Part shown: positions 10,681 to 21,276 of the stretch, piece after piece
Position numbering within the stretch: position 1 is the first letter of the stretch
How the letters are laid out: the number at the start of each line of letters is the position of its first letter
Origin: Robiginitomaculum sp.
GTDB taxonomy: Bacteria; Pseudomonadota; Alphaproteobacteria; Caulobacterales; Maricaulaceae
Assembly: GCA_021776565.1 (NCBI GenBank)
Contig: JAJFFQ010000034.1
Location: 62,001 to 126,000, forward strand
Direction: 5' to 3'
Length of the DNA: 64,000 nucleotides
Translations under genes and position numbers: made by a program
The notes under the pieces: model-generated
Database searches by the model: none
The model's input: the letters and a program-made list of their open reading frames with translations, nothing else
What the model was told of the DNA's origin: nothing

Positions 10681-10710
10681 TTGATATAATAGTGCTTGCA
10701 TAATTAAAAT
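10681..10710 (+). promoter_or_regulatory. Candidate sigma-70 promoter of the ilv-leu operon
   Basis: TTGATA (10681-10686) and TAAAAT (10705-10710) are 18 bases apart in the AT-rich stretch before the ilv leader. Transcription would begin near 10717 and give a leader of about 260 bases up to the attenuator. Assigned by eye; other AT-rich hexamers nearby could serve. Confidence 0.35.
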
Positions 10711-10780
10711 ATGAAGTTATTAAGCATCCAACGCTCACCATTGTGCAGTGCTGTGGTGACACGGATTTTGGAGTCTGGTC

Positions 10781-10918
10781 GTGAATTTGCGCACAGAAAA
10801 TACTAACAGCAGGATGTTCGTTCTAGCCCGGGCGAATAATCTGCCAGGCTCTGTCTCTTTACTTCTAGTCAGTGTGATTATTGTGGTCGTCCTTACCGGG
10901 GCGGGGCAGTTCGGATAA
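10781..10918 (+). CDS. ilv-leu operon leader peptide
   Basis: A 45-residue leader from a GTG at 10781, with GGAG seven bases upstream, to TAA at 10916. The translation starts MNLRTENTNSRMFVLAR and contains the control run SLLLVSVIIVVVLTG: 4 Leu, 5 Val and 2 Ile within 14 codons, including rare-type TTA and CTA codons. A ribosome short of charged Leu, Val or Ile tRNA would stall here. The peptide is followed after 27 bases by a terminator and then by ilvD. Peptide length, codon content and position match the multivalent attenuators known for ilvGMEDA and ilvBN in enterobacteria. It has no protein function of its own. Confidence 0.85.
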   Translation: MNLRTENTNSRMFVLARANNLPGSVSLLLVSVIIVVVLTGAGQFG

Positions 10919-10975
10919 AGCAAAATTAAAATGCGTTTACCGAAGCCCTGCTCCCAAAAGGAAGCGGGGTTTTTT
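10841..10975 (+). promoter_or_regulatory. Transcription attenuator of the ilv-leu operon
   Basis: Four segments can pair alternatively. Segment 1 CTGCC (10841-10845) lies within the leader before the control codons. Segment 2 GGGGCAG (10903-10909) ends the leader peptide. Segment 3 CTGCTCCC is at 10948-10955. Segment 4 GGAAGCGGG (10960-10968) is followed by T6 (10970-10975). Segments 1:2 pair through GGCAG/CTGCC, 2:3 through GGGGCAG/CTGC(T)CCC as antiterminator, and 3:4 as terminator. A ribosome reaching the TAA at 10916 covers segment 2 and lets the terminator form. Stalling at the Leu/Val/Ile codons frees segment 2. The pairings were found by eye, not folded. Confidence 0.8.
10946..10975 (+). 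terminator. Rho-independent terminator arm of the ilv-leu attenuator
   Basis: The stem CCC(T)GCTCC / GG(A)AGCGGG with a short A-rich loop is followed by six T residues ending at 10975, 31 bases before the ilvD start. It lies between the leader peptide and the first structural gene, so it is a regulated rather than an end-of-operon terminator. Confidence 0.8.
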
Positions 10976-11006: not shown

Positions 11007-12689
11007 ATGTCCCAAACCAGGTCAAAACGCAGTGATGCGATTGTCAAAGGCGCGGCCCATGCTCCGGCGCGGGCAATGTTGCGTGCCACAGGCTTTGAAA
11101 CCGCCGATTTTGATGCGCCCATCATTGGTCTGGTTAACACCTGGACGACGGTAACGCCATGCAACATGCATCTGGACAAGCTGGCCGAACCGGTACGCGC
11201 GGGAATACAAGACGCCGGGGCGAGGCCAGTGGATTTCAATACTATTGTGGTTTCCGATGGCGTGACCATGGGGGCCGAGGGTATGCGTGCCTCACTTATC
11301 TCCCGTGAGGTTATTGCTGACTCTATCGAATTGGCTGTGCGTGGTCACAGTCTGGATGGTGCCATTATTCTGGTTGGTTGTGACAAGACCATTCCGGCCG
11401 CTGCCATGGCGCTGGCGCGCATGAACATACCCGGGATGGTTTTTTATGGCGGATCAATCATGCCGGGGGAGCGTGATGGGAAGCCCTTATCCATTCAGGA
11501 CGTGTTTGAGGCCGTAGGTGCCGAGGCCAGCGGCGCCATGTCCGAAGAGGAACTGGGCGAAATTGAACGTAAAGCCTGCCCGGGTGCCGGGGCATGTGGG
11601 GGGCAGTTTACGGCCAATACCATGGCTATGGCGATGAGCATGTTGGGGTTATCGCCCATGGGAGCCAATGACATTCCGGCAATCCACCCGGATAAAGGTA
11701 AGGCTGCACGTGCTTGTGGCCGCCGTGTAGTGGAACTGGCCAGAGAGGATGTATGCGCCCGCCAGTTTATCAATATGCAATCACTGGAAAATGCAGCTTT
11801 GGCGGCGTCTGCCTCTGGTGGGTCAACTAACGCTATTTTGCATTTGCTGGCGATTGCCCATGAGGCGGGTATTGCGTTTGACCTGGAAGACTTTCACAAG
11901 GCAGCCACACGCGCCCCGGTGATTGCTGACCTGAAACCAAGCGGGCAATATCTGGCAAACGATCTCTTTTTGGCGGGGGGGACACGCCTTTTGGCAGCGC
12001 GTTTGCGCGATGCCAATTTACTGGGCAACACACCAACGGTTAGTGGCAATTCTTTATTTGAAGAACTGGACGCGCTTGCTGAAACGCCGGGGCAGAAAAT
12101 AATTGTCCCGGTTAGTGCGCCGCTAAAAAAAAGCGGTGGCTATCGCATACTTTATGGTGACCTGGCTCCCGAAGGAGCCGTTCTGAAAGTTTCAGGCACG
12201 GCAGATAAAGTTTTTGAAGGCCCGGCCCTGGTTTTTGAAAGCGAAGAAGATTGTTTTGCCAACGTGAAAAAAGGCGGCGTTAAGGCCGGTGATGTCGTCA
12301 TCATACGCAATGAAGGTCCAAAAGGCGGCCCGGGTATGCGCGAAATGTTGGCCGTTACGGCTGCACTGGTCGGGCAGGGCATTGCCGATGATGTTGCCCT
12401 CATCACCGATGGGCGGTTTTCAGGGGCAAGCAAGGGCTTTGTTATTGGTCATTGCGCGCCGGAGGCGGCCAATGGCGGCCCCATCACTTTGATCCGTAAT
12501 GGTGATCGCATCCGCATAGATGCGCAAAAACGGCGTATTGATATTGATGCAGATATTAGCGCCCGGCGCGCCGCGTGGACGGCACCTAAACGCCGAAATT
12601 TCGGCGGTGTTTTCGATAAATACGCCCGCCTTGTTTCCTCGGCCTCAAAAGGGGCTGTTACCACAATTTTACAAACGGAGAATAACTAA
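11007..12689 (+). CDS. ilvD: Dihydroxy-acid dehydratase
   Basis: Converts 2,3-dihydroxy-isovalerate and 2,3-dihydroxy-3-methylvalerate to the 2-oxo acids of valine and isoleucine synthesis, using an iron-sulfur cluster. 560 residues, normal for IlvD. Cluster cysteines are seen in TPCNMHLD (Cys52), [10 protein letters not shown] (about Cys124) and [14 protein letters not shown] (about Cys197). Other family segments are [15 protein letters not shown] and [13 protein letters not shown]. It is the first structural gene after the attenuator, with AAGGAACC upstream of the ATG. Its stop TAA overlaps the ilvC ATG by one base, so the two are translationally coupled. Confidence 0.96.
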
Positions 12690-13666
12690 TGAACGCTCGT
12701 GAAGCAAAAATAGCCATTATAGGGTATGGCAGTCAGGGCCGCGCCCATGCCTTAAACCTGCGTGATAGCGGTTTTGATATAGTTGTCGGTGTGCGCGACG
12801 GTGGCAAGGGAGAAGGCCGCGCCAATGCAGACGGACTGCGTACAGCCAGCCCCGCAGAGGCAGCGGCTGAAGCCAGCCTGATTGCCATGCTGACCCCGGA
12901 TCTCAGCCATGAAGAGATATTTCGTGACAGCATTGCCCCTAATTTATCCGCAAACGACGCGTTGTTATTCGCTCATGGATTTACCATCCATTATGATCGC
13001 GTAATGCCCCCGCGCGGGATTGACGTCATCCTTGTAGCCCCCAAGGGGCCGGGTGATCTGGTGCGCCGCGAATATGAGAGAGGGCGCGGAGTGCCTTGTC
13101 TTTATGCGGTGCATCAGGACGCAAGTGGTCGCGCCGGGGATCGTGCTCAAAGCTATGCGAAAGGTATAGGCGGCGTCGAAGGCGGTGCCATAGAAACCAG
13201 TTTTGCCGAGGAGACAGAAACAGATTTGTTCGGTGAACAGGCGGTTTTGTGTGGCGGTGCAACGGAGCTGGTGATTGCAGGCTTTGAAACTCTGGTTGAG
13301 GCTGGGTACCAGCCCGAAGTGGCCTATTTTGAATGTATGCACGAGCTGAAATTGATTGTGGATCTGCTCTATGAGGGCGGTCTTGCCAAAATGCATGAAT
13401 TTATTTCCGAGACCGCTATTTATGGCGATTTGGTCTCCGGCCCGCGTATTATTAACGGCGAAACCCGTGCCCGCATGCGCGAAGTATTGACTGACATTCA
13501 AAATGGTAATTTTGCCCGAGACTGGATCAAGGAAAACCAGAACGGCCAGCCGCAATATAAGGCGCTTTTGGAAAAAGACCTGAACCAGCCAATTGAAAAA
13601 GTTGGTGCTCGTTTGCGCGCAAATATGGCTTGGTTAAGTCCAGCTGCCAAAACAGCAGCCGAGTAA
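12689..13666 (+). CDS. ilvC: Ketol-acid reductoisomerase (class I, short N terminus)
   Basis: Isomerises and reduces acetolactate or acetohydroxybutyrate to the dihydroxy acids, using Mg2+ and a nicotinamide cofactor. At 325 residues it is a little shorter than usual (about 335-340). The protein starts almost at the Rossmann strand [18 protein letters not shown], and the usual dozen leading residues are missing. Catalytic regions are intact: [34 protein letters not shown] (metal Asp and Glu), [16 protein letters not shown] and ISETAIYGD. The cofactor loop reads [11 protein letters not shown] and lacks the serines that commonly bind the NADPH 2'-phosphate. It overlaps ilvD by one base and lies 24 bp before ilvB. 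Confidence 0.95.
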
Positions 13667-13690: not shown

Positions 13691-15394
13691 ATGAACGCGA
13701 TTCAAACCACAATAAACCCGGAATGCCCCCCTGTGTGTTCGCAAGCGCCAACCGGTGCGGAACTGGTCGTGGCAGCATTGCGGGATCAGGATGTGGACAC
13801 GGTATTTGGGTATCCGGGCGGGGCTATTATGCCGCTTTATGATGCCTTGCCTGGTTCTGGTTTGAAGCACATTCTGGTGCGCCATGAACAGGCGGCGGCT
13901 TTTGCCGCTGATGCTTATGCCCGGGTGACGGGTAAGGCCGGGGTTTGCCTTGCAACATCTGGCCCGGGGGCAACAAATCTGCTTACCGGAATTGCCAATG
14001 CGTTTTTGGACTCGGTGCCCTTGATTGCCATTACCGGGCAAGTGCCAGCCAATGTAATGGGTACAGATGCTTTTCAGGAAATTGATATTTTTGGTATGTC
14101 CATGCCCGTGGTCAAACACAGCTTTTTGGTACGCCAGGCCGAAGATATTCCACAGATTATTGCCGAGGCTTTTGCCATTGCCACAACAGGGCGGCCTGGG
14201 CCAGTGTTAATCGATTTACCCAAGGATATTGCGCAAACCCGTGTTGAAAACCCAGTAACGGCAAAAATTGAAAAAAATGAGCGTCGAGCACCCGACCCGG
14301 TGGCAATTGTTGGTGCAGAGGCTTTGTTAAAACGTGCCAAGCGCCCTGTACTTTATATTGGTGGCGGGGTTGCCAAAGCAAAGGCGGTTCAGACCTTGCG
14401 GCGCTTTAACATGCTGGCGGGTATTCCTGCAGTTTCAACCCTGACCGGCCTTGGCGTACTGCCCACGGACAGTGCTGATTTTTATGGCATGTTGGGTATG
14501 CACGGCACCAAGGCTGCCAATATCCTGGTACAGGAATCTGATCTGTTACTGGTTTGCGGGGCACGCTTTGATGACCGCGCCACCGGCAAAGTGGACAGTT
14601 TTGCACCCGGTGCCAAGGTCATTCATCTGGATTGTGACCCGGCGGAAATTGGTAAAATACGCAACGCAGAGGCAGGGGTACAGGGCGATTTGAAAAGCGC
14701 ACTGGAAAGCCTGGCTGTTGGTATTCTGGATATATCGCCCTGGCGGGCACGGGCGCAAGAATTACGCAGCCTTCATGCGTTTAGTTATAACGCACCGGGT
14801 GCCGGTGTTTTTGCCCCCGCATTTTTGGAAGAACTTTCAAGGACTGCCGGGGATAGTTTTGTCGCCACCTGTGATGTGGGGCAGCACCAGATGTGGGTGG
14901 CCCAGCATTGCCATTTCACTCGCCCGGAAGCGCATTTGACCAGCGGCGGTCTTGGGGCCATGGGTTACGGCATTCCCGCTGGTATTGGTGCCAAACTGGC
15001 ACGCCCTGATGATTGTGTTGTCACCGTGACTGGCGATGGCTCCATCATGATGAATATTCAGGAACTGGCGACCATTCGCCGTTATGGCGTGGCTCTGAAA
15101 ATCGTACTTTTTGATAACTCAACATTAGGGCTTGTGCGCCAATGGCAAGAGCTTTTTTACGAGGGTAATTTCAGTGAGGTTGATCTTTATGACAACCCAG
15201 ATTTTGCCGAAGTCGCACGGTCTTTCGGGGTGGAAGCTTTTACTGTCACCCGCCGTGAACAAACCAGTTCTGCAATTAAACGCTTGTTGAACACACGCGG
15301 CCCGGTGCTGGCCCATATTCGTATCGATCCACGCGAAAATGTCTGGCCTTTGGTACCTCCTGGAAAATCCAACGCCGAAATGATGGAGCGATAA
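13691..15394 (+). CDS. ilvB: Acetolactate synthase large (catalytic) subunit
   Basis: A thiamine diphosphate and FAD enzyme that condenses two pyruvates, or pyruvate with 2-oxobutyrate, as the committed step to valine, leucine and isoleucine. 567 residues, normal length. Seen in order are [16 protein letters not shown], the catalytic Glu in [37 protein letters not shown], the FAD region around GLGVLPTD, and the ThDP-binding motif starting GDGSIMMN and ending about 30 residues later in [13 protein letters not shown]. The start at 13691 has only a weak GAAAG site. It ends two bases from the small subunit ATG. It could equally be called ilvG given the short partner subunit. Confidence 0.95.
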
Positions 15395-15395
15395 A

Positions 15396-15677
15396 ATGAC
15401 AACACAAACGTTACATATTGAATTTGAATCTGCCGAAGGCGCTTTGCTGCGACTGATTGGTCTGGTGGAGCGGCGTGGTTATGAGGTTTGCAGCATGAAC
15501 TTACCCACTCCGGCCACAGGCACAATGATTCTCGATCTGGGCATTATGGCCCGTGATGGTGATCGGGATATTGGGGTGCTCAGGCGCCAAATTCACCGCC
15601 TGACCGGTGTGCGCCGGGTTATGGGTGGCAAGAAGAGTGACAAAAAATCTATGGGAGATCATCATGGTGACGGGTAA
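15396..15677 (+). CDS. ilvM: Acetolactate synthase small (regulatory) subunit, short IlvM-like form
   Basis: A 93-residue protein with one ACT domain (about 1-75), starting MTTQTLHIEFESAEGALLRL and continuing GLVERRGYEVCSMNL. ACT subunits activate the catalytic subunit and often carry valine feedback. Its length fits E. coli IlvM (about 87) and not the 160-170 residue IlvH/IlvN type common in alphaproteobacteria, which has a second domain. It lies one base after ilvB and overlaps the leuA start by 14 bases. The symbol is by analogy; strong sequence similarity to IlvM itself was not tested. Confidence 0.8.
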   Translation: MTTQTLHIEFESAEGALLRLIGLVERRGYEVCSMNLPTPATGTMILDLGIMARDGDRDIGVLRRQIHRLTGVRRVMGGKKSDKKSMGDHHGDG

Positions 15678-17271
15678 AGCAAAAGGAGAAAAAGCTACTG
15701 AAATAATGTTTTTTGATACAACTTTGCGCGATGGTGAGCAGGCACCGGGTTTTTCCATGTCCGTCGAAGAAAAATTGATGATGGCGGGGGCTTTGTGTGA
15801 TCTGGGCGTTGATGTGATAGAGGCGGGTTTTGCCGCCGCATCCCCCGGCGATGCAGAGGCGGTGCGCCGCATTGCGCTTGAAACCGAAGGGCCAACAATC
15901 TGTAGCCTTTCACGGGCGAGTGAACATGACATCAAGATCGCCGCACAAGCCCTGAAACCAGCGGGCAAGAGCCGCATCCATATCTTTTTGGGAACCAGCC
16001 CTATTCACCGCAAGGCCAAGTTGAATATGGATACAGATGAGGTGTTGGCGGCGATAGAACATTCAGTATCTTTGGCAACAACCCTTTGTGATGAGGTTGA
16101 ATTTTCTGCTGAAGATGCGATCCGCACAGAGCGGGATTTTTTGGTTGAAGCCCTTGAATGTGCGGCCAGGGCTGGCGCGCGGGTGCTGAACGTCCCGGAT
16201 ACTGTGGGTTACACTACGCCGGATGAAATTTATGACTTGTTTAAGTTCCTGATTGCCAAGGTGAATAACGCAGACAATGCCATTTTCAGCACCCATTGTC
16301 ATGATGATCTGGGTATGGCAGTGGCCAATTCCCTTGCGGCAGTGCGTGCAGGTGCGCGCCAGGTTGAAGGGGCCATTAACGGCATTGGCGAGCGAGCGGG
16401 TAATTGTGCGCTGGAAGAAATGATAATGATCTTTGCCACGCGCAAGGATGTTTTTAATGCGCAGATCAATGTGGACACCAGCAAAATTTACCCGGCCAGT
16501 CGTATGTTGGCTAAAATGACGGGAAATCCGGTGCCACGTAACAAGGCCATAGTTGGCCGCAACGCCTTTGCCCATGAGGCAGGTATCCACCAGCATGGTG
16601 TGCTCAATGACCGGCGTACTTATGAGATTATGCGCCCTGAGGACATTGGTCTATCCGGTAATGCCCTGATTTTAGGCAAGCACAGCGGCAAGCATGCCCT
16701 GGCCGCACGGGCAAAAGAACTGGGCTTTGAAATTGATGACGATCGCCTGGCCGCCGTTTTTGTATCATTCAAGGTATTGGCTGATGAATTTGGCGAGATT
16801 GCCGATGCACAGCTCATCGACCTGATCTCTGGCGTCACAGGAACAGCCAGTGCCGTTTGGTCATTGAAACGTGTGGAAATGCGCGCCGCCTATGGGGCGC
16901 AGGTGGAGCCGTTTGCCCGTGTGGAACTGGAGCATCCTGAACGAGGTGCCGTTACCGATATTGCCACGGGTGAGGGGCCGATCCATGCGGCGTTTAATGC
17001 CGTGCAGCACATTACAGGCTTCACAGCGAGCGTAGAAGAACTTGAGATAAATCATGTGGGTGCCAAGGGTCGAACTGATTGTATCGCTGATATTGTGCTG
17101 CGTATTGATGGCCAACTCTTTGTTGGCCGTTCACGCACTCGCGATGTGATCCCGGCGGGGGTGGAGGCTTATGTAGATGCCATAAACCGTGCCGCCGCCA
17201 GCTTGAACCGCGACGCTTTTGGGCAGGAAAAACCTGCCACTGACCCCGGTAAAACCAAGGATGCGGCTTAA
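15664..17271 (+). CDS. leuA: 2-isopropylmalate synthase
   Basis: Condenses acetyl-CoA with 2-oxoisovalerate, the first committed step to leucine. The ATG at 15664 has GGGAG just upstream and starts MVTGKAKGEKATEIMFFDTT, giving 535 residues. Extending the frame back to 15607 would only run further into the small-subunit gene. The TIM-barrel catalytic domain (about 12-280) has FFDTTLRDGEQAPGFSM and the metal motif HCHDDLGMAVANSL, then GARQVEGAINGIGERAGN. The C-terminal LeuA dimer regulatory domain (about 380-510) usually binds leucine. The start overlaps ilvM by 14 bases. Confidence 0.95.
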   Translation: MVTGKAKGEKATEIMFFDTTLRDGEQAPGFSMSVEEKLMMAGALCDLGVDVIEAGFAAASPGDAEAVRRIALETEGPTICSLSRASEHDIKIAAQALKPAGKSRIHIFLGTSPIHRKAKLNMDTDEVLAAIEHSVSLATTLCDEVEFSAEDAIRTERDFLVEALECAARAGARVLNVPDTVGYTTPDEIYDLFKFLIAKVNNADNAIFSTHCHDDLGMAVANSLAAVRAGARQVEGAINGIGERAGNCALEEMIMIFATRKDVFNAQINVDTSKIYPASRMLAKMTGNPVPRNKAIVGRNAFAHEAGIHQHGVLNDRRTYEIMRPEDIGLSGNALILGKHSGKHALAARAKELGFEIDDDRLAAVFVSFKVLADEFGEIADAQLIDLISGVTGTASAVWSLKRVEMRAAYGAQVEPFARVELEHPERGAVTDIATGEGPIHAAFNAVQHITGFTASVEELEINHVGAKGRTDCIADIVLRIDGQLFVGRSRTRDVIPAGVEAYVDAINRAAASLNRDAFGQEKPATDPGKTKDAA

Positions 17272-17294: not shown

Positions 17295-18254
17295 ATGAGT
17301 ATTTCAGAAGCAAAATACATATGGCGTGATGGCCAGATGCTGCCCTGGGCAGAGGCAACCACCCATGTTTTGAGCCACGGCCTGCACTATGGCACGTCCA
17401 TGTTTGAGGGTATTCGTGTTTATGACACACCAAATGGCCCATGCGGATTTCGTCTGACCGAGCATGTCGCCCGGCTGTTTGCTTCAGCGCGTATTTACGC
17501 CATGGAAATTCCCTTTGAGGAGGAGGAACTGGTTGAAGCCTGCCGCGAAACCGTGCGGGTTAATCAGTTAACCAGTGCTTATTTGCGCCCCATCGCCTAT
17601 CATGGTTATGGTGATATTGGTGTTGCACCGGGGCCGGATACACCGATCAATGTTGCCATTGCCGCCTTTCCCTGGGGTGCCTATCTGGGCGAGGCTGGTC
17701 GACAAAATGGCGTTGATGTTTGTGTGTCTTCCTGGCGGAGACCTGCACCAGGCACCATTCCCATGAGTGCCAAGGCTGCGGGTAATTATCTTTCTGGATT
17801 TCTTATTTCTAGAGAGGCAAAGCGCAATGGTTATGCCGAAGGAATCGCTCTGGATGTTGATGGGAGGCTTTCTGAAGGTGCGGGTGAAAATCTCTTTATT
17901 GTCAAGGGCGAAACCTTGCACACTCCGCCAGCCGCCTCGTCAATATTAAGTGGTATCACCCGCGATACAGTGATGAAACTGGCCGTTAAAATGGGGTTTA
18001 ATATCCGCGAAGAACCTCTGCCCCGGGAAATGCTCTATGTGGCGGATGAGTTATTTTTTACGGGTACGGCCGCTGAAATAACGCCAATTAGATCGGTGGA
18101 TGGCACCAAAACCCTGGCCCGAGGGTGCGGCCCGATAACCCGTGCCTTGCAAGACCAGTTTTTTGGCCTTTTCAATGGCAAGACACCCGACACAGAAGGC
18201 TGGCTGGAACCCATTGGCGTGTCCAGTACCCGGGAGGTATCCAATGTCGCCTAA
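17295..18254 (+). CDS. ilvE: Branched-chain amino acid aminotransferase
   Basis: A fold-type IV, PLP-dependent aminotransferase that makes valine, isoleucine and leucine from their oxo acids and glutamate. 319 residues. The PLP lysine lies in [15 protein letters not shown] (about residue 160). Other family stretches are [16 protein letters not shown] near the N terminus, [42 protein letters not shown] and [24 protein letters not shown] precedes the ATG, 23 bp after leuA. Its last 11 bases overlap the leuC start. Confidence 0.95.
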
Positions 18255-19659
18255 ATCACTTTTTGACAAGGTGTGGGAACGCCATTTGGTTCGCGTTGAA
18301 ACGGTAGAGCAACCGGCAGTGCTCTACATTGATCGCCATCTGGTGCATGAGGTCACCTCACCCCAAGCCTTCGCGATGCTCAAAGAGCGCGGTTTGAGAG
18401 TTCGCTGCCCGGATCGTACTTTTGCAACCATGGATCATTCAACGCCTACCGTGCCGCTTGGCCCGGATGGTGACCCCGTTTATGCCAACGAGGATGCCCG
18501 TATGCAGGTGCAAACCTTGCAGGAAAACTGCGCAGAGTTTGGCATAGAACTTTTTGGCTGGGACAGCCCCCATCGCGGTGTTATTCACGTTATGGCACCA
18601 GAGCTAGGCCTGACCTTGCCGGGAATGACCATTGTGTGCGGCGACAGTCATACCGCCACACATGGTGCATTTGGGGCGCTGGCTTTTGGTATTGGCACAA
18701 CCGAGGTTAGTCATGTTCTGGCCACTCAATGTCTGCTGCAAAACAAGCCAAGATCAATGCGTGTGACCTTGAACGGGCGGTTAAATGCAGGGGTTAGCGC
18801 CAAGGATATGGCTTTGGCGGTGATTGCGGCGCTGGGTTCGGGTGGTGGCACGGGTTACGTCATTGAATATGCTGGCGAAGCTGTGCGTACCCTTGGTATG
18901 GAAGAGCGCATGACGCTGTGCAACATGACAATTGAAGCTGGCGCCCGCGCGGGTATGATTGCCCCAGACCAGGTGACTTTTGATTGGTTGAAAGGCCGCG
19001 CACATGCACCCAAAGGCGATGCCTGGGAGCATGAGATTGAGGATTGGAGAGCACTAAAAAGTGATAAAAATGCTGTTTATGATGCCGAGATCACACTAGA
19101 GGCTCGGTTGATTGCACCGATGATTACCTATGGGCCTTCGCCGGATCAGGGCATGGCCGTGGATTCAATAACGCCGCATCCTTGCGGTGCGGTAGAGCGC
19201 CAGGGCCTTGATTATATGCGCTTTACGCCAGGTCGACCAGTTATGGGGGAAAAGGTGGATGTGGTGTTTATCGGTAGTTGCACCAATGGGAGGTTAAGCG
19301 ATTTACAAGCTGCCGCACAGGTATTGCTGGGCCATCGTATTCACCCGGATGTGCGCATGCTGATTGTACCAGGTTCGGAACAAGTGCGCCGTGAGGCAGA
19401 GCATGAGGGTTTGCATGAAATATTCAAGACTGCGGGCGCTGAATGGCGTCTGCCTGGGTGCTCCATGTGCATTGCAATGAATGGCGATATGGCAATGCCT
19501 GGTGAACTGGTGGTTTCTACGTCAAACCGTAATTTTGAAGGTCGGCAAGGCAAGGGCGCGCGCACTGTGCTTGCCTCGCCAGCCACGGCTGCCGCCAGCG
19601 CCATCTGGGGGGAAATTGCTGACCCACGGCCATTTATGGAGGCCCCTCGTGTTGCTTGA
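18244..19659 (+). CDS. leuC: 3-isopropylmalate dehydratase large subunit
   Basis: The iron-sulfur half of isopropylmalate isomerase, which acts with LeuD in leucine synthesis. The ATG at 18244 is chosen for the GGGAGG seven bases upstream; it gives 471 residues starting [16 protein letters not shown], the normal length and start. Cluster cysteines are in [14 protein letters not shown] and [12 protein letters not shown]. Other aconitase-family stretches are [20 protein letters not shown] and TYGPSPDQG. It overlaps ilvE by 11 bases and leuD by 11 bases, so translation is probably coupled along the operon. Confidence 0.96.
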
Positions 19660-20230
19660 TAAATTTTCAAAACTAACCTCCCGGACTATGGTTCTGGCAC
19701 AGGAAAATATCGATACTGACCAGATCATCCCGGCACGTTTTTTAACCACAACCAGCCGTAACGGTCTGGGCCGAGCTGCGTTTTATGACTGGCGATATGA
19801 TGAAGCGGGAATGGCCCGCAACTCGGATCCCTTTGCGGGCAAAGAACCACAGGCGCATCAGATTTTGGTCGGGGGCGCCAATTTTGGCTGCGGATCATCG
19901 CGCGAACATGCGCCTTGGGCTTTGGCTGATTTTGGTTTTCGCGCTGTGGTCAGCACCAAAATTGCCGATATTTTTAAAAGTAATGCCATAAAAAACAGTA
20001 TTTTACCTATTGAGGTTAGCTCGGAAACTCATGCGGATCTGATTGCAACACCGGGTGCAGAACTCACCATAGATCTGGAGCGGTTAGAAATATTACGCCC
20101 GGGAAAATGGAAGCAATCTTTTGAAATGGATGCTTTTGGACGGCGCTGCCTCCTGGATGGTGTTGATCCACTGGGTTTTTTGCAAAACTGTGAAGATGAA
20201 ATTACACAATTTGAGGCAAGGCGCGCATGA
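19649..20230 (+). CDS. leuD: 3-isopropylmalate dehydratase small subunit
   Basis: The swivel-domain partner of LeuC. The start is set at a GTG (19649) with GGAGG six bases upstream; a TTG at 19652 is possible. Both give about 193 residues, the usual size, beginning [20 protein letters not shown]. Family motifs are [11 protein letters not shown], the substrate loop [34 protein letters not shown] and KNSILPIEV. It overlaps the end of leuC by 11 bases, and its stop shares ATGA with the start of leuB. Confidence 0.95.
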
Positions 20231-21276
20231 GTTACAAAATTGTTGTTCTGCCTGGTGACGGGGTTGGGCCAGAAGTGGCAGACGCGGCAATGTCTGTGCT
20301 TGTCGCGACATCAGGTGTATTCGATCTATCCCTTGAATTTGATAACCATGCCTTTGGCGGAGCGGCGATTGATGCCTGTGAAAATCCATTGCCGACTGAA
20401 ACCATGGCCGCTTGCAAGGTGGCCGATGCAGTATTTTTAGGAGCGGTTGGTGGGCCAAAATGGGATGGCGCGGCACTACGCCCTGAGGCCGGATTGCTTG
20501 GGCTTCGTGCCGGGTTAAATTTGTTTGCTAATTTACGTCCTGTGGATGTTCATCCTGCTCTGGTTGAATATTCACCTTTGCGACCAGAGCGCGTATCAGA
20601 TGTGGATATACTGATCGTGCGCGAACTGACGGGCGGGCTTTATTTTGGCAAGAAAAATCGCGAAGGCGACAATGCCAGCGACCTCTGTAAATATTCTAAA
20701 TTTGAAATCATCCGTGTTGCTCGTATTGCTTTTGAGGCTGCTCGTGGTCGCAAAAACCACGTTACATCCATCGACAAGGCCAATGTACTGGAAACCAGCC
20801 GTCTGTGGCGGGAAACCGTAACAGCTTTGCAAAAAAAAGAATTTCCGAATGTAGAACTGCGTCATGAATTGGTGGACTCGGCGGCGATGAAACTCATCAC
20901 TTCGCCGGGCAGTTATGATGTGGTGCTAACTGAAAACCTGTTTGGTGACATCCTTAGCGATGAGTGTTCTGTACTGTCTGGTTCAATTGGTCTTTTGGGT
21001 TCGGCGTCGCTTGGTTCTGGCCGGTTAGGGCTTTATGAGCCAATTCACGGCTCGGCCCCCGATATTGCAGGACAGAATATTGCCAATCCGGTGGGGGCCA
21101 TTTCCAGTGTGGCCATGATGTTGCGCCATAGCCTGAACGCCCCCAAAGCCGCTCAGGCAATTGACAATGCGATTTATTCTGCGCTCGAAAACGGGGTACG
21201 AACTTCCGACCTGGGCGGCGCATTTAGCTGTTCACAAATGGCTGATGAAATCCAAAACCGGATTTTTGCTGACTGA
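20227..21276 (+). CDS. leuB: 3-isopropylmalate dehydrogenase
   Basis: NAD-dependent oxidative decarboxylation of 3-isopropylmalate, the third leucine step. 349 residues. Motifs in order are VVLPGDGVGPEVADAA, LGAVGGPKWD, IVRELTGGLYFGKKN, the catalytic Lys region IDKANVLETSRLWRE, ELVDSAAMKLITSP, NLFGDILSDECSVLSGSIG and the NAD site LYEPIHGSAPDIAGQNIANP. It starts on ATGA overlapping leuD and is the last gene of the ilv-leu operon. No convincing T-tailed terminator follows; only a small AGGG/CCCT stem lies just after the stop. Confidence 0.96.
   Translation: MSYKIVVLPGDGVGPEVADAAMSVLVATSGVFDLSLEFDNHAFGGAAIDACENPLPTETMAACKVADAVFLGAVGGPKWDGAALRPEAGLLGLRAGLNLFANLRPVDVHPALVEYSPLRPERVSDVDILIVRELTGGLYFGKKNREGDNASDLCKYSKFEIIRVARIAFEAARGRKNHVTSIDKANVLETSRLWRETVTALQKKEFPNVELRHELVDSAAMKLITSPGSYDVVLTENLFGDILSDECSVLSGSIGLLGSASLGSGRLGLYEPIHGSAPDIAGQNIANPVGAISSVAMMLRHSLNAPKAAQAIDNAIYSALENGVRTSDLGGAFSCSQMADEIQNRIFAD

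Follow-up and report, generated by a model that had tools for sequence, protein, structure and literature searches.

Introduction

What controls an operon in which genes for the synthesis of leucine, valine and isoleucine stand together behind a single leader? This question is raised by a 64,000-nt stretch of DNA from the marine alphaproteobacterium Robiginitomaculum sp. (Caulobacterales; GCA_021776565.1, contig JAJFFQ010000034.1, positions 62,001–126,000, forward strand), which we refer to as a whole as the window and whose numbering is used throughout; all features described below are on its forward strand. A first-pass annotation of this DNA had proposed that a multivalent attenuator precedes nine ilv and leu genes. 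Branched-chain attenuators have already been reported in alphaproteobacteria, and their mechanism is textbook. The classical multivalent examples are ilvGMEDA and ilvBN of E. coli; the leader peptide of the former, ilvL, is 32 aa long and contains 15 branched-chain residues (PMC6123439). In Caulobacter crescentus, the leader of the ilvBN (ilvIH) attenuator contains Ile and Val codons (Tarleton, Malakooti and Ely 1994, as cited in PMC4117421), and branched-chain leaders occur before ilvIH or ilvB in alphaproteobacteria, Sinorhizobium meliloti included, according to the citations of a comparative survey in later papers (Vitreschak et al. 2004, cited in PMC2573895 and PMC1273637).

The analysis presented here leads us to consider it very probable that the region upstream of ilvD is a ribosome-mediated, multivalent transcription attenuator, one that would respond jointly to the charging of Leu, Val and Ile tRNA.

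Genes downstream of the leader

Gene names were assigned with NCBIfam models at their curated cut-offs. The operon opens with ilvD (dihydroxy-acid dehydratase, 11007–12689; NF002068 and TIGR00110), followed by ilvC (ketol-acid reductoisomerase, 12689–13666; NF004017 and TIGR00465), an ilvG-like ilvB encoding the catalytic subunit of an acetolactate synthase 2 (AHAS II) type enzyme (13691–15394; NF006524), leuA (2-isopropylmalate synthase, 15664–17271; NF002086 and TIGR00973), ilvE (branched-chain aminotransferase, 17295–18254; NF005146 and TIGR01122), leuC (18244–19659; NF004016 and TIGR00170), leuD (19655–20230; NF002458 and TIGR00171) and leuB (20227–21276; TIGR00169), all of which score above cut-off. 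The starts of leuA, leuC and leuD are predicted ones, the listed leuA frame opening at 15607. Between ilvB and leuA lies an ilvM-like small-subunit gene (15396–15677) that matches NF008362 with an E-value of 6e-7 and scores below cut-off (29.2 vs 68 bits); its place and length fit. The proposed gene set of ilvD-C-B-M, leuA, ilvE and leuCDB is therefore borne out by models above cut-off for every gene except ilvM. Threonine deaminase lies outside the operon, as had been claimed, with an ilvA-like gene on another contig. The genes 3' of the leader make the amino acids that the leader would sense, and all nine would be carried on one transcript.

We did not find a second branched-chain acetolactate synthase in the genome, where the next match is 29% identical; because the assembly is 96% complete, this absence is not certain. 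The closest named relative of the window's IlvD is that of the Robiginitomaculum MAG NORP54 (84% identical), and other relatives are found in Hellea, Algimonas, Maricaulis and Parvularculaceae, in keeping with an alphaproteobacterial source within the Caulobacterales.

The leader frame and its control codons

The leader peptide gene (10781–10918) has 45 codons, from a GTG start at 10781 to a TAA stop at 10916–10918, in agreement with the coordinates given in the first-pass annotation. It has its own ribosome-binding site, a GGAG Shine-Dalgarno sequence at 10770–10773, and GGAG or a close variant precedes the GTG in congeneric sequences. Codons 27–38 (10859–10894) read TTA CTT CTA GTC AGT GTG ATT ATT GTG GTC GTC CTT, encoding LLLVSVIIVVVL. 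The leader thus joins, in one short frame, a ribosome-binding site to a run of codons for the products of the pathway. This run is conserved in the genus, is present in relatives and is biased toward rare synonyms. Twelve-codon stretches with 11 Ile, Leu or Val codons are found at two places when the window is read in all six frames, the second being at ∼20630 within leuB, and 20 first-order Markov simulations of the same 64 kb length produced none.

Alignment of 12 sequences from the genus is consistent with translation of this frame. The GTG start is kept in 12/12, and gaps within the leader frame are all multiples of three, whereas those outside it are not. The N-terminal part of the leader varies freely in both sequence and length; the position of the control run, by comparison, is tied to that of segment 2, the antiterminator arm described below.

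Synonymous codon choice sets the control runs apart from the neighboring ilvD. In the genus, CTG makes up 0.11 of Leu codons in the runs vs 0.53 in ilvD. The corresponding values in Brevundimonas are 0.16 vs 0.89 for CTG, 0.79 vs 0.07 for ATT and 0.54 vs 0.01 for GTA. Three Obscuribacterales leaders differ in that CTG is common in their runs. Codon bias in the control regions of attenuators is established and has been explained by selective tRNA charging (PMC1183508).

These features bear on the idea that the leader is a hydrophobic small (membrane) protein with a function of its own, in which case the terminator would end its small transcript and regulation of ilvD would be incidental. The run LLLVSVIIVVVL could indeed span a membrane, and the frame has its own ribosome-binding site. 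A protein function, however, would not need the strong synonymous codon bias of the run, nor does it fit with an N-terminal part that varies freely while the run keeps a fixed position relative to segment 2. In the loci examined, moreover, the leader heads branched-chain operons even where the first gene has changed. We regard this explanation as very improbable and favor a leader peptide whose translation would serve to regulate the operon.

Competing hairpins upstream of ilvD

An intrinsic terminator (10942–10973) lies between the leader and the first structural gene. Its 3' arm, segment 4 (10960–10973), contains GAAGCGGGG, which is nearly invariant in the genus. The T6 tract (10970–10975) is conserved in 12/12 sequences and is the expected 3' end of an attenuated transcript. 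The ATG of ilvD is at 11007, in agreement with the 31 bases that had been counted between the T6 tract and ilvD. Segment 3 (10940–10955) is common to the terminator and to an antiterminator whose 5' arm, segment 2 (10898–10914), lies within the leader frame just before the stop codon. The antiterminator pairing, 10898–10914 with 10940–10954, excludes the terminator.

Folding of 10890–10975 gives the 2:3 antiterminator at −35.0 kcal/mol (z −3.84, with 0/200 shuffles as good), and removal of segment 2 allows the terminator to form (−19.8 kcal/mol, z −3.06). When segments 3 and 4 are absent, segment 2 pairs weakly with the last control codons (10882–10893 with 10898–10908), and the former stretch is the candidate segment 1. 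Taken as a whole, the fold of this truncated RNA does not outperform shuffled sequences (z 0.28). From these z-scores, the mutually exclusive pairings claimed for four segments are well supported for segments 2, 3 and 4, but segment 1 as a protector of segment 2 is only plausible.

A small stem (GCA...TGC) at 10920–10934 caps the antiterminator loop, and a similar short stem with changed bases can be seen by eye in several relatives.

The simplest interpretation of this arrangement is that RNA polymerase and a translating ribosome would move along the leader together. Poor charging of Leu, Val or Ile tRNA would stall the ribosome in the control run, at codons 27–36, leaving segment 2 free. Free segment 2 would pair with segment 3, no terminator would form and the nine ilv–leu genes would be transcribed. 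When Leu, Val and Ile are all plentiful, the ribosome would reach the stop codon and cover segment 2, so that segments 3 and 4 could pair and transcription would end at ∼10975.

Switch geometry and covariation

We simulated stalled ribosomes by masking a footprint whose leading edge lies 12 bases beyond the first base of the A-site codon; the remainder was then folded. The footprint size follows E. coli practice. For the leader in the window, stalls at codons 31–36 give the antiterminator with a probability of 0.95 to 1.0 and stalls at codons 27–30 with a probability of 0.61–0.74, whereas stalls from codon 37 on, the stop codon included, give the terminator with a probability of 0.96–1.0. A ribosome at the leader stop is therefore able, in silico, to block the antiterminator that excludes the terminator.

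In many relatives, equilibrium folding with segment 4 present gives the terminator at nearly all stall positions, so the switch in those relatives must be kinetic. After this equilibrium test of full leaders had failed for many relatives, we chose to fold the leaders as they would be before segment 4 is made. In each lineage, 2:3 pairing is then lost at stalls about 8 to 11 codons upstream of the stop (codons ∼−8 to −11): stalls upstream of this point leave segment 3 largely paired with segment 2, and later stalls leave it free. In each lineage, the end of the Leu/Val/Ile run is close to this switch point.

The position and content of the run are relevant to a second alternative, that attenuation is driven by translation of the leader as such, with the initiation rate or global translation setting readthrough and no amino acid being sensed. 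Because the fold favors the antiterminator when no ribosome is present, expression should rise whenever leader translation falls, as this alternative would have it. It offers no account, however, of a run that is made up of exactly the operon's three amino acids and ends near the switch point, and we judge it highly unlikely compared with sensing of charged tRNA.

The pairing of segments 2 and 3 is maintained by covariation across lineages. We re-paired segments between loci in place of counting base pairs, the MAFFT alignment of the genus having gaps inside segment 3. Among 66 loci, namely those with an automatically found terminator (the finder missed seven loci and mis-set locus L090), the mean pairing energy of segment 2 is −20.8 kcal/mol with the native segment 3, −17.3 with segment 3 of other lineages and −13.5 after shuffling of segment 2; the native pairing is better than that with shuffled segment 2 in 66/66. 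For 61 distinct loci, which share ancestry and hence do not represent 61 independent events, the mean is −21.2 kcal/mol, a value that none of 5000 re-pairings across loci reached (mean −17.98, sd 0.38). Re-pairing within lineages is significant only in Xanthomonadales and in a mixed group of other Caulobacterales; it is not significant in the genus (P 0.12) or in Brevundimonas (P 0.56). Three-way changes are seen in Lysobacter (GGCGCGGGG / CCCCGCGCC / GGCGCGGGG) and in Wenzhouxiangellaceae (AGGTAGCGGG / CCCGCTACC / GGAGCGGGG).

Elements upstream of the leader

A likely promoter, TTGCAT and TTATTA separated by 16 bases, is located at 10696–10723. Its CTTG and TANTAAGC blocks recur with the same spacing in most of 12 congeneric sequences. 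Because a consensus scan did not recover it, this promoter is a guess from conservation. Between it and the ribosome-binding site of the leader, the predicted 5' UTR folds into a stem-loop at 10735–10759. A hairpin is found at this position in most, but not all, members of the genus, with a changed stem sequence.

This stem-loop is what would speak for control by a trans-acting factor or metabolite-binding RNA, such as a repressor acting on the 5' UTR palindrome, a T-box or a riboswitch. Its sequence is not conserved, however, and the other matches to its pattern in the genome are too degenerate to define a regulon, which we rejected on these grounds. Nor does the leader region match any Rfam family at gathering score, Leu_leader, Trp_leader and similar families and the T-box included, and a T-box or other Rfam element was rejected accordingly; the best leader match was to Trp_leader, at 17.2 bits vs a cut-off of 41. 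Leu_leader and similar families use the same mechanism as that proposed for the ilv–leu leader. As a replacement for attenuation, a trans-acting factor or metabolite-binding RNA seems to us extremely unlikely, although one could act in addition to the attenuator.

Comparison with known branched-chain leaders

The Caulobacter crescentus ilvBN attenuator belongs to the same order and, like the leader described here, combines an Ile/Val leader frame and an intrinsic terminator with a branched-chain acetolactate synthase downstream. It differs in having a short leader that controls ilvBN only, whereas the leader in the window has 45 codons, more control codons and nine genes behind it, with a synthase of the AHAS II type. 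Several genomes of the order also contain short ilvI (ilvIH) leader-like frames with terminators, for example MRNVALVLVRMPRLGEG. The leaders of Sinorhizobium meliloti and other alphaproteobacteria are alike in pairing a branched-chain leader peptide with a terminator and unlike in standing upstream of acetolactate synthase genes alone. The 2004 survey of Vitreschak et al. reportedly may cover Xanthomonas operons as well. The closest parallel in content is E. coli ilvGMEDA, where a multivalent leader likewise precedes AHAS II (ilvGM), ilvE and ilvD. In E. coli, however, leuABCD and ilvC are under separate control and ilvA is part of the operon; the operon described here takes in leuA-CDB and ilvC, with ilvA located outside it.

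We found no paper naming this ilv–leu leader in a search that covered few subscription journals. What appears to be new, as far as we found, is the reach that the attenuator would have over the ilv–leu pathway and its apparent retention through gene loss and enzyme replacement. If the attenuator is real, the supply of leucine, valine and isoleucine would be set by a single leader peptide across much of the Caulobacterales. Starvation for any one of these amino acids should therefore raise the enzymes for all three.

Conservation of the leader and operon

The gene ilvC is present in 15/18 congeneric genomes, and each of these (15/15) has the leader and terminator. Many distant genomes keep both as well, so the loss of frame or hairpins in relatives, which the first-pass annotation had named as evidence against an attenuator, is not what we observe. 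The leader is located before ilvD in 13 of the 15 genomes and directly before ilvC in two (G014 and G005). In these two (loci L177 and L178/L193, respectively), the window-type ilvD is absent from the head of the operon; G014 has a different IlvD (37% identical), encoded at the far end in the opposite orientation. No ilvC, window-type ilvD or branched-chain acetolactate synthase was found in the remaining three genomes (G008, G013 and G016; 73 to 93% completeness), which are either incomplete assemblies or branched-chain auxotrophs.

Beyond the genus, we found Leu/Val/Ile leaders ahead of ilvD-first operons in Brevundimonas and other Caulobacterales, in three records from Obscuribacterales, and in Lysobacter, Luteimonas and Wenzhouxiangellaceae. 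Oceanicaulis (L068) and Sphingosinicella (L094) have the leader in front of ilvC-first operons. No such leader is seen in some ilvD records that extend far enough upstream (L074, L087). The gene order ilvD-C-B-(M)-leuA-(ilvE)-leuC-D-B is likewise widespread, being common among the Caulobacterales examined and recurring in Lysobacter and Wenzhouxiangellaceae; the layout is thus not the unusual one that had been suggested. The operon's acetolactate synthase is of the ilvIH type (∼41% identical to that in the window) in some Parvularculaceae and relatives, where the leader is kept. Four such loci (L033, L035, L125 and L126) retain the operon layout.

Tentatively, these distributions may reflect one old attenuator module that was kept at the head of the ilv–leu operon through loss of ilvD and replacement of the acetolactate synthase and that spread, or descended, across Alphaproteobacteria, Xanthomonadales and Obscuribacterales, with leader and operon forming one evolutionary unit; we consider this possible but somewhat doubtful. 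The many natural variants, some of them before ilvC and not ilvD, provide a ready set for the study of control-codon choice and placement outside enterobacteria.

The three Obscuribacterales (Cyanobacteriota) records, L078, L084 and L103, are MAGs in which an ilvD-C-B-leu operon is preceded by a Leu/Val/Ile leader and a terminator. We rejected horizontal transfer of the operon to Obscuribacterales as a conclusion; the trees show these sequences as one group only and indicate no donor. One contig labelled Bordetella (L049) has an operon and leader that closely resemble those of Brevundimonas diminuta; it is probably a mislabelled or contaminated MAG.
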